DNA of 64,000 nt from Catellatospora citrea (GTDB lineage: Bacteria; Actinomycetota; Actinomycetes; Mycobacteriales; Micromonosporaceae): NCBI RefSeq assembly GCF_003610235.1, contig NZ_RAPR01000001.1, positions 3,782,001-3,846,000 on the forward strand, given 5' to 3'. Position 1 is the stretch's first letter. Every line of letters begins with the position of its first letter. A model generated the notes under the pieces. That model worked only from the letters and a program-made list of their open reading frames with translations. It did no database searches and was not told where the DNA came from. A program made the position numbers and the translations under genes. Shown here in pieces: positions 29,860 to 32,177 of this stretch.

Positions 29860-30563
29860 GGAAGTTCCTCACGGTCACCGCGGTGGTGCTCGTCGCCCTC
29901 GGGATGCTGGTCGTGGTCGCCGACCGGGTCGGCGCGCACTACGCGGAACGTGAGATCGCCGCGCGGGTCTCCGCGCGGATGCAGGAGCAGGGCATCACCT
30001 CGACCCCGCCCGAGGTGGAGATCCAGGGCTTCCCGTTCCTGACCCAGGTCGCGGCCGGTCGGTACACCCAGATCGACATCACCATGCGCGACCTCAAGGG
30101 CGGCACGCTGCCCCTGCCCCTGCTCAGCGTGGCGGCGCAGGACGTCGAGGCGCCGCTGTCACAGCTCATGGACGGCACCGCACGGCCGGTCGCGGCCCGG
30201 GTCGACGGCACCGCCACCGTGTCGTACGCGAGCCTGGTCGAGGCCAGCGGCCTGACCGGGATCACCCTGAGCTCGGCCGGCCCGAACACGGTCCGGGTCA
30301 CCGGCAAGGTGCCGATCATCGGCGAGGTCACCGGCACCGCCGAGGTCACCGTCGTGGACGGCGGCCGGGTCCGGCTGCGCGCCACCTCGCTCAAGGGCGC
30401 GGCCGGCTCGGTCAGCCAGGCGATCATCGACGCCTACAAGGACCGGCTCGCGGTCACGCTGTCCCTGCCCAAGCTGCCGTTCCACCTCGAACTGAAGGAC
30501 GTCCAGACGGAGTCCACCGGCCTGGTCGTGTCGTTCACCGCCAAGGACGTCGAACTGGCCTGA
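29856..30563 (+). CDS. lmeA: LmeA-like DUF2993 lipid-binding protein
   Basis: This 235-residue exported protein has an N-terminal membrane anchor (FLTVTAVVLVALGMLVVVAD) then a DUF2993 domain with VEIQGFPFLTQVAAGRYTQI and the late YKDRLAVTLSLPKLPF. In mycobacteria LmeA (Rv0817c) supports mannan elongation of lipomannan and binds phospholipid; transfer of that function here is inference. The ATG overlaps the preceding stop. Confidence 0.88.
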   Translation: MRKFLTVTAVVLVALGMLVVVADRVGAHYAEREIAARVSARMQEQGITSTPPEVEIQGFPFLTQVAAGRYTQIDITMRDLKGGTLPLPLLSVAAQDVEAPLSQLMDGTARPVAARVDGTATVSYASLVEASGLTGITLSSAGPNTVRVTGKVPIIGEVTGTAEVTVVDGGRVRLRATSLKGAAGSVSQAIIDAYKDRLAVTLSLPKLPFHLELKDVQTESTGLVVSFTAKDVELA

Positions 30564-30566
30564 CGA

Positions 30567-30609
30567 CCGGGTGGATCATCGTCGCACTCCCGGATGGTGA
30601 TCCACCGGT
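30567..30609 (+). terminator. hairpin after lmeA
   Basis: CCGGGTGGATCATC and GGTGATCCACCGG pair imperfectly just past the lmeA stop. Confidence 0.5.
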
Positions 30610-30651
30610 CCCGGATGGTGGACGACACATTCCCGAAATCACAGCGCTGCT

Positions 30652-30668
30652 GGTAGGGTCACGAACTA
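30652..30668 (+). promoter_or_regulatory. -10 element for likely leaderless leader-peptide transcript
   Basis: TAGGGT (30654-30659) ends 8 bases before the ATG of the leader peptide. This spacing would start the transcript at or near the initiation codon. Confidence 0.4.
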
Positions 30669-30745
30669 TGAGTCCGCTGCTTACCAAGCGGCGCGCGGTC
30701 GACCTGTGCCGCGTGGCCACGTGCCTGTGTTGCCCCGTCCTCTGA
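30668..30745 (+). CDS. 25-residue cysteine-rich leader peptide ahead of sulfurtransferase
   Basis: ATG 30668 to TGA 30743-30745 encodes MSPLLTKRRAVDLCRVATCL followed by CCPVL. The peptide has four cysteines (14, 19, 21, 22), three clustered just before the end. Mycobacteria have a known class of leaderless short ORFs with cysteine runs upstream of cysteine-metabolism operons, including the sulfurtransferase/DUF1416 locus, that attenuate expression when charged cysteine tRNA is plentiful. Sequence style (KRRAVDLCRVA), position and downstream genes agree with that class, so this is probably the cysteine sensor for the cysA operon. Confidence 0.8.
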   Translation: MSPLLTKRRAVDLCRVATCLCCPVL

Positions 30746-30993
30746 CGGCGGCACAGTTTGCGCACCTCGATCGCGCTTCCGTGATCGTTTAGCAGCTCTG
30801 TCAACTGACTCGCATCGCCCGCTCATCGCTGAGCCGGCCGCCCCCGCAAGTCAGCCAGCCGCCGTCGCCCTGTACCCGGTGAACCCCCTGTGGACCCGTA
30901 CGCGGCGACGTTTTTCTTTCTCCCGCTCGCGCTCCCGGTGGCGTCACCCGCATCAGACGTTCATCCACCAGCCATATCTCAAGGGAGAACTCC
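30746..30993 (+). other. 248-base leader between leader peptide and sulfurtransferase
   Basis: No gene is seen. The tract would be the attenuation region of the transcript. GGGAG (30981-30985) serves as ribosome binding site for the ATG at 30994. A T-rich run, TTTTTCTTTCTCC, lies near 30912-30924. I could not assign a clear terminator hairpin. Confidence 0.45.
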
Positions 30994-31842
30994 ATGAGTC
31001 GCGAATCCGCCCTCGTCTCGGCCGACTGGGCCGAGAAGAACATCGCCGCACCCGGCGTCGTGTTCGTCGAGGTAGACGAGGACACCACCGCCTACGACGG
31101 TGGCCACATCGCCGGCGCGGTCAAGCTGGACTGGCGCACCGACCTGCAGGACCCGGTGCGCCGTGACTTCGTGAACAAGGAGCAGTTCGAGGCGCTGCTG
31201 TCGTCGCGGGGCATCGGCAACGACGACACCGTCGTGCTGTACGGCGGCAACAACAACTGGTTCGCCGCGTACGCGTACTGGTACTTCAAGCTCTACGGCC
31301 ACGGCGACGTGAAGCTGCTCGACGGCGGCCGCAAGAAGTGGGAGCTCGACGCCCGCCCGCTGTCCAAGGACGTGGTCGAGCGCCCCGCGACCCAGTACGT
31401 CGCCAAGGACCAGGACCTGTCCATCCGCGCCTTCCGCGATGACGTGGTCAAGGCGATCGGCGTGCAGAACCTGGTCGACGTGCGCTCGCCCGACGAGTAC
31501 GCGGGCCGCCTGCTCGCCCCCGCCCACCTGCCGCAGGAGCAGGCGCAGCGGGCCGGCCACATCCCGACCGCGATCAGCGTGCCGTGGTCCAAGGCCGCGA
31601 ACGAGGACGGCACCTTCAAGTCCGACGCCGAGCTGACCGAGCTGTACGCGGCCGCGGGCATCGACGACAGCTTGGACACCATCGCGTACTGCCGCATCGG
31701 CGAGCGCTCCTCGCACACCTGGTTCGTGCTGCAGGAGATCCTCGGCAAGGCGAACGTGAAGAACTACGACGGATCCTGGACCGAGTACGGCTCGCTGGTC
31801 GGCGTGCCGGTGGCACTGGGCGACGAGCCCGGGAAGGCGTGA
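30994..31842 (+). CDS. cysA: thiosulfate sulfurtransferase (double rhodanese)
   Basis: This 282-residue protein has two rhodanese domains. The first has DGGHIAGAVKLDW and the second DVRSPDEYAG; the catalytic loop is IAYCRIGERSSHTWF, where the cysteine carries the persulfide. It transfers sulfane sulfur from thiosulfate to an acceptor such as cyanide or a thiol. The pair with DUF1416 matches the mycobacterial cysA2-sseC2 locus. It is likely under cysteine control through the leader peptide. Confidence 0.93.
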   Translation: MSRESALVSADWAEKNIAAPGVVFVEVDEDTTAYDGGHIAGAVKLDWRTDLQDPVRRDFVNKEQFEALLSSRGIGNDDTVVLYGGNNNWFAAYAYWYFKLYGHGDVKLLDGGRKKWELDARPLSKDVVERPATQYVAKDQDLSIRAFRDDVVKAIGVQNLVDVRSPDEYAGRLLAPAHLPQEQAQRAGHIPTAISVPWSKAANEDGTFKSDAELTELYAAAGIDDSLDTIAYCRIGERSSHTWFVLQEILGKANVKNYDGSWTEYGSLVGVPVALGDEPGKA

Positions 31843-31847
31843 TCACC

Positions 31848-32177
31848 ATGACCGCACAGACTGCTTCCACTGTCGCGGCCGGTTGCGCCGCGCCCGACCA
31901 GGCCGCCCCGCTGCCGCTCAGCGTCGACCTGGAGAAGGAGACCGTGATCACCGGCGTCGTGCAGGCGGCGGGTGACCCGGTCGCCGGGGCGTACGTGCGC
32001 CTGCTCGACCGCAGCGGCGAGTTCACCGCCGAGGTCGTGACCTCGCCGGCGGGCCAGTTCCGCTTCTTCGCCGCGCCCGGCACCTGGCAGCTGCGCGCCC
32101 TGTCCCGCTTCGGCAACGGTGACGCCACCGTCACCGCCGACCGCGGCGTCAACGAGGTCTCCCTCGCCGTCGCCTAG
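31848..32177 (+). CDS. sseC: DUF1416 protein, SseC-like
   Basis: This 109-residue protein matches DUF1416, with a carboxypeptidase-regulatory-like beta sandwich: TVITGVVQAAGDPVAGAYVR, LLDRSGEFTAEVVTSPAGQF and FFAAPGTWQLRALS. It always accompanies the sulfurtransferase in actinobacteria and may be a partner or carrier. ATG 31848 is used; GTG 31839 overlaps the previous stop and is possible. Confidence 0.88.
   Translation: MTAQTASTVAAGCAAPDQAAPLPLSVDLEKETVITGVVQAAGDPVAGAYVRLLDRSGEFTAEVVTSPAGQFRFFAAPGTWQLRALSRFGNGDATVTADRGVNEVSLAVA

Follow-up and report, generated by a model that had tools for sequence, protein, structure and literature searches.

The rhodanese operon of Catellatospora citrea is preceded by a member of a known family of cysteine-rich leader peptides, followed in this lineage by what looks like a complete switch of the trp type. 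We hold with moderate confidence that these features would be best explained by a ribosome-mediated transcription attenuator that reads cysteine codons. The stretch of DNA analysed (hereafter the window) comprises 64,000 nucleotides of contig NZ_RAPR01000001.1, and all coordinates below are counted from its first base. The elements discussed are as follows.

30588-30602 and 30609-30623, forward strand: TCCCGGATGGTG(A/G)(T/A)C, present twice ahead of the promoter, candidate regulator-binding boxes
30654-30659, forward strand: -10 hexamer TAGGGT, separated from the leader ATG by 8 bases
30668-30745, forward strand: leader peptide ORF of the Ms5788A family, with Cys codons at 30707, 30722, 30728 (UGU) and 30731
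30725-30739, forward strand: arm 1, CUGUGUUGCC (30725-30734) plus GUC (30737-30739), holding Cys codons 14 and 15
30744-30756, forward strand: arm 2, GACGGCGGCACAG, beginning within the stop codon UGA and able to pair with arm 1 or arm 3
30858-30869, forward strand: arm 3, GCCGCCGUCGCC, of which 30858-30866 pairs with arm 2 (putative antiterminator) and 30863-30869 with arm 4 (putative terminator)
30904-30910, forward strand: arm 4, GGCGACG, the 3' side of the putative terminator stem
30911-30919, forward strand: T-run TTTTTCTTT, directly 3' of arm 4
30918-30924, forward strand: anti-Shine-Dalgarno (anti-SD) segment UUCUCCC, able to pair with the rhodanese SD GGGAGAA
30983-30989, forward strand: SD GGGAGAA of the rhodanese gene, as read from the sequence
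30994-31842, forward strand: rhodanese-type sulfurtransferase of 282 aa (PF00581, E 2.7e-32), which we take to be CysA2-like
31845-32177, forward strand: DUF1416 protein of 110 aa (PF07210, E 7.6e-41), presumably SseC-like

The 25-codon ORF MSPLLTKRRAVDLCRVATCLCCPVL ends with the stop codon UGA at 30743-30745. Its peptide scored 60.4 bits against the profile of the Ms5788A Cys-rich leader (NF042933; curated cut-off 45, E 9.4e-17) and 41.6 bits against the wider profile of putative leader peptides (NF042934; cut-off 27). Judged by these matches, the ORF is real and is a member of the Ms5788A family. The initial annotation had proposed a 25-residue Cys-rich ORF at 30668 and a leader of the mycobacterial type ahead of a sulfurtransferase operon, and both proposals agree with the profile match and with the rhodanese and DUF1416 genes downstream. 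Matches to NF042933 were found in all 11 genomes of the genus Catellatospora and in 148 of the 150 genomes of its family, Micromonosporaceae, at E<=0.01 (111 of the 150 above the curated cut-off), and at the class level in 187/296 genomes at E<=1e-4 (38/296 above the cut-off). We examined 98 loci, namely 71 of the family (own locus included) and the 27 best-scoring of the class; all 98 had been picked by the leader match, and in all 98 a rhodanese gene lies downstream of the leader. The leader was readable by pattern in 92 of these, and the remaining six (L056, L060, L061, L062, L067 and L075) were left out of later counts. In a second, overlapping set of 80 named loci the leader was read by pattern in 62, with 18 loci without such a reading.

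The leader ORF is probably leaderless. As the initial annotation had noted, TAGGGT stands 8 bases ahead of the ATG, as expected for a leaderless mRNA, and this geometry is kept throughout the family: the distance from the end of a TANNNT hexamer to the leader ATG is 8 bases in 50, 7 in 14 and 6 in 1 of 65 family loci (own locus included). Such spacing, seen in 65/65 loci, leaves the transcript too short ahead of the ATG to hold a Shine-Dalgarno site, which makes the leaderless reading a strong one. Further upstream, the pattern TCCCGGATGNTGNWC has three perfect matches in the genome of C. citrea, two of which are the boxes at 30588-30602 and 30609-30623. A pattern search detected such a box in 42 of the 65 family loci, its first base lying 51-55 bases ahead of the leader ATG, and we regard the two boxes as a candidate operator.

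The closest named relatives of the rhodanese are three Catellatospora records (95-97%). Between the leader stop codon and the rhodanese ATG (30994) lie 248 bases, exactly the length given by the initial annotation, which had set this tract against a tight coupling of leader and gene in mycobacteria. Such tight coupling was not found in the mycobacterium-like genus g43, in which the leader is 565-620 bases away from the rhodanese gene in 12 of 14 loci. In the one g43 locus scanned for intervening ORFs (L095), as in L081 of the own family, the intervening ORF encodes a DUF4395 protein. The spacer between leader and rhodanese in L055 holds what was judged by eye to be a shortened DUF4395-like frame, perhaps a decaying gene.

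By its sequence, the tract of 248 bases contains the elements of an attenuator of the trp type, and the helix formed by arms 3 and 4 (3:4; other helices are named likewise) is shaped like an intrinsic terminator followed by a U-run. The hairpin CGUCGCC...GGCGACG (30863-30910, -21.0 kcal/mol) abuts TTTTTCTTT, the sole 9-base stretch with 8 or more T on either strand of the window, the GC content of which is 72%. The fold of 30858-30919 has a z-score of -2.49, equalled by 4 of 200 shuffles. A simple terminator scanner, which considers only loops of 3-8 bases, detected another small hairpin (30888-30905) before the same T-run, with one found versus 0.2 expected. Upstream, hairpin 1:2 (30720-30760) has a predicted energy of -17.6 kcal/mol and a z-score of -3.26, and Cys codons 14 and 15 lie inside arm 1, an overlap of leader ORF and regulatory codons as in a trp-type attenuator. 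The statement of the initial annotation that the tract is without an obvious terminator is thus contradicted by the hairpin at 30863-30910; its suggestion that the mechanism may differ from that in mycobacteria is favoured by the antiterminator/terminator pair and the T-run, even though the reason it gave, the absence of a terminator, fails. The folding of the tract for alternative structures, which it had also proposed, gave mutually exclusive helices 2:3 (putative antiterminator) and 3:4 (putative terminator). A search of Rfam covariance models against 30550-31100 gave no match up to E 1, and no T-box or riboswitch was recognised there.

Both exclusive helices are conserved in the family. 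In an alignment of 62 family sequences, from which the longer-spacer loci L055, L063 and L081 had been left out, 2:3 is paired in 94.7% of cells versus 17.8-78.8% in slid versions, and 3:4 in 90.2% versus 26.6-40.6%. Four pairs of 2:3 are changed on both sides, with as many in 1 of 500 shuffles, and its covariation score was matched by none of the 500; for 3:4 seven pairs are changed on both sides, and neither this number nor the covariation score was reached in 500 shuffles, which, however, ignore the relatedness of the sequences. Sliding 2:3 by -2 gave two-sided changes in 5 pairs and 10 cells versus the 4 and 9 observed, with only 25.1% of cells paired. For 1:2 the whole family showed no excess of covariation (score reached by 215/500 shuffles), and its 5 pairs changed on both sides were reached by 11/500. 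The consensus fold of the 11 genus sequences pairs the Cys codons with the bases following the stop codon in one hairpin and places another ahead of the pyrimidine run. Within the genus 2:3 is invariant, and helices 1:2, 3:4 and 5:6 taken together are 97.2% paired, with a covariation score reached by 5/500 shuffles and two pairs changed on both sides, a number reached by 108/500. Outside the genus, the loop of the 3:4 hairpin reads CGTGATCC in 35 of 51 family members, a conservation for which we saw no pairing reason.

From the computed parts, their overlap, their exclusivity and their conservation we infer termination, ribosome stalling, and a response to cysteine together with its sign. Transcription would start at or beside the leader ATG, with a ribosome trailing the polymerase. 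With ample Cys-tRNA the ribosome would reach UGA and cover arm 2, leaving the GC-rich stem 3:4 free to form ahead of the U-run, and transcription would stop ahead of the rhodanese gene. With scarce Cys-tRNA it would stall while Cys codon 12 or 14, or less favourably 15, occupies the A site, and would thereby cover arm 1; 2:3 would then form ahead of the synthesis of arm 4, the terminator stem would be weakened at its base, and the operon would be transcribed. The helix between anti-SD and SD near the rhodanese gene may be a second, translational layer.

The predicted folds of C. citrea follow this scheme in part. Minimum-energy folds keep 3:4 intact if the RNA is free or the ribosome is at the stop codon, and contain 2:3 if arm 1 is covered. 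If the RNA is taken to end with the T-run, the four pairs at the base of 3:4 are predicted at probabilities of 0.99 (ribosome at stop), 0.98 (free RNA), 0.55 (stalled at Cys12) and 0.39 (stalled at Cys14). As long as arm 4 is still unmade, the stalled ribosome gives a 2:3 probability of 1.00, and with footprints of +12 to +18 that of 2:3 is 0.75-0.84 for Cys12, 0.66-0.82 for Cys14 and 0.00 at the stop. For a stall at Cys15 it falls from 0.82 to 0.66 and 0.41 with footprints of +12, +15 and +18, and with the last of these 3:4 stands at 0.99. A stall at Cys7 leaves 3:4 at 0.91-0.96, that is, it predicts no switching, which is the wrong sign for the model. The mean over all seven pairs of 3:4 is still 0.62-0.86 with the ribosome stalled at Cys12 or Cys14, and the switch is therefore incomplete at equilibrium; the overlap of 2:3 and 3:4 in arm 3 amounts to just four bases, with the result that the upper part of the 3:4 stem persists on stalling.

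Across the family the predicted shift mostly has the same sense. Among the 57 of 62 sequences in which the arm-3 core was found by pattern, a pattern that in itself favours pairing with arm 2, stalling lowered the predicted probability of 3:4, relative to a ribosome at the stop, by more than 0.5 in 38 and raised it by that much in no sequence; the core was not found in the other five. L072 shifts in the opposite direction, by 0.40. In L046 and L047 the terminator stem as drawn is low at the stop as well (0.18-0.20), and perhaps their stem uses another register. Since the core pattern favours pairing with arm 2, a comparison of arm 2 with shuffled tracts is the fairer test: the mean z-score over 63 family members was -2.03, 36 of the 63 were singly within the best 5%, and L001 was equalled by 7 of 200 shuffles. 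No signal was seen in this test in five loci from outside the family.

The T-run is distributed far more narrowly than the helices. Within the 9 bases following arm 4, 6-7 T are found in 8 of the 11 genus members and 1-2 T in the other three (L039, L050 and L053); the 44 family members counted outside the genus have 0-4 T, with a T-run in none of them (7 of the 62 alignment rows were excluded from these counts for gaps). With the T-run missing in three members of the genus and in all 44 others counted, the output cannot be intrinsic termination everywhere. In a tree of the rhodanese gene, the three genus members without the T-run grouped together (support 1.000) separately from the eight possessing it (0.961), and both groups were joined against the outgroups (0.859); the simplest reading is that the T-run was gained in the ancestor of the eight. 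Spacer T-runs (at least 7 T in 9) occur in 5 of the 62 parsed loci of the named set, one of them in Catellatospora (L122); the other four (L139, L149, L174 and L180) are counted as T-runs alone.

The peptide itself is also conserved. Compared with the consensus over motif codons -2 to 9, 38 distinct leaders show 112 synonymous and 22 non-synonymous differences, while the single-base neighbours of the consensus comprise 32 synonymous and 76 other changes. This excess of synonymous differences indicates that the amino acids of the leader are under selection, more than hungry codons alone would ask for; RNA-level constraint on the same leader bases is a possible further explanation of the conservation. 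Leader codon 14 is UGU in all 92 parsed leaders; in the gene that follows, the codon for the catalytic Cys is UGC in all 91 cases in which it was found. In the second, overlapping set (n=62), codon 14 is UGU in 47, UGC in 14 (all Nocardia) and CGC in one, and the Nocardia leaders with UGC indicate that the UGU rule is not universal. We propose tentatively, as a rather doubtful extension of the attenuator model, that the nascent chain LTKRRAVDLCRV sets a programmed pause with UGU as the sensor, which would feed a conserved three-helix switch, the output of which would have turned into intrinsic termination in one genus by the gain of the U-run.

An alternative output would be translation. Under attenuation in the mycobacterial style, the switch would hide or free the rhodanese gene's SD and start codon, with an incidental T-run; mycobacterial members are reported to act on translation. 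In the 11 genus members the end pair of the anti-SD/SD helix is U-A in six, G-C in two, G-U in one and unpaired in two, the other six pairs being invariant, and in all 11 the start region is predicted to open at a lower cost, by 0.6-2.6 kcal/mol, if the ribosome is at Cys14 instead of the stop codon. However, of 63 family members 19 showed a difference in this cost of more than 1 kcal/mol in the expected direction and 8 one in the opposite direction, figures that may be blurred by a hairpin within the rhodanese coding sequence. Stalling shifts the predicted accessibility of SD and AUG very little: the SD is unpaired at 0.39 stalled versus 0.33 at the stop in the 11 genus members (0.43 versus 0.39 in 51 others), and the AUG at 0.53 versus 0.54 (0.37 versus 0.42). 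The T-run, moreover, is left unexplained. In the relative L065 an arm is predicted to shift on stalling from the region of the rhodanese AUG to arm 4, the SD remaining paired, and for this related genus a translational output is possible; as the main output in C. citrea we consider translation rather unlikely, and a translational layer beside termination possible. Some folds (that of L065) also suggested a family-wide relay of helices 4:5 and 5:6 onto the start codon, which was rejected as inconsistent over 51 sequences.

A further point counts against the attenuator model, in that Rho-independent terminators are reported to be scarce in some actinobacteria. In Rho-dependent attenuation, the untranslated tract would load Rho unless a stalled ribosome or RNA structure blocked it; the 248 bases are C-rich (99 C versus 62 G), and a report of 2005 (PMC1262725) offered Rho as a weak prediction for the cys leaders of mycobacteria. 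The conserved pairing of 2:3 and 3:4 and the T-run abutting arm 4 would find no explanation in this way, and we regard a Rho mechanism as improbable. That the structures are kept for some other reason, such as RNA stability or protein binding, with the leader ORF merely marking a leaderless start, is most improbable of all: the conserved loop letters CGTGATCC (35/51 outside the genus) go beyond what base pairing demands, but the positions of Cys codons, stop codon and arms follow the logic of an attenuator, and the lack of an Rfam match up to E 1 also counts against it.

The C. citrea leader shares with the Ms5788A leader and the mycobacterial cysA2 uORF a peptide above the curated cut-off, the leaderless position and a sulfurtransferase operon downstream, and differs from them in having no DUF4395 gene between leader and rhodanese. 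For M. smegmatis, Shell et al. 2015 (PMC4633059) described ribosomes occupying the uORF ahead of cysA2. Its polycysteine leaderless short ORFs likewise precede genes of cysteine metabolism, and their reported output is translation (Canestrari et al. 2020, as cited in passages of PMC13236596 and PMC9031893), whereas in C. citrea the sequence would better support transcription termination. Cys leader peptides were described in Mycobacterium, Propionibacterium and Bifidobacterium by Seliverstov et al. 2005 (PMC1262725), who reported no conserved terminator hairpins and suggested Rho; unlike those leaders, the present one has helices 1:2, 2:3 and 3:4 with a T-run, and the parts missing there appear to be present here. 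The attenuator model resembles the trp attenuators of Corynebacterium and Streptomyces and the ilvB attenuator of Mycobacterium in having regulatory codons in arm 1, the stop codon at arm 2 and an exclusive antiterminator/terminator pair, and differs from them in the use of cysteine codons, in the distance of about 100 bases, with other hairpins, between arms 2 and 3, in the long terminator loop and in the strong conservation of the leader amino acids. Of the eight leader peptides listed in a survey of Streptomyces lividans (PMC8079986), none carries a name referring to cysteine. Among the literature matches listed (titles and starts of abstracts), no Cys leader with this antiterminator/terminator pair was described.

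Since relatives share the core of the switch with and without the U-run, one genus lends itself to a natural comparison of ways in which the output of an RNA switch may alter, and the conservation of the leader amino acids together with the UGU codon makes a possible part of the peptide itself in sensing directly testable. Four more leader-like peptides of the NF042934 type (L002-L005) were detected in the genome of C. citrea, of which only L002 scored above the cut-off. L002 precedes an apparent sulfatase (named by eye), L003 an SBP_bac_3 protein, L004 a nitrite/sulfite reductase and L005 an SBP_bac_5 protein, and this suggests that similar leaders serve a group of sulfur genes.
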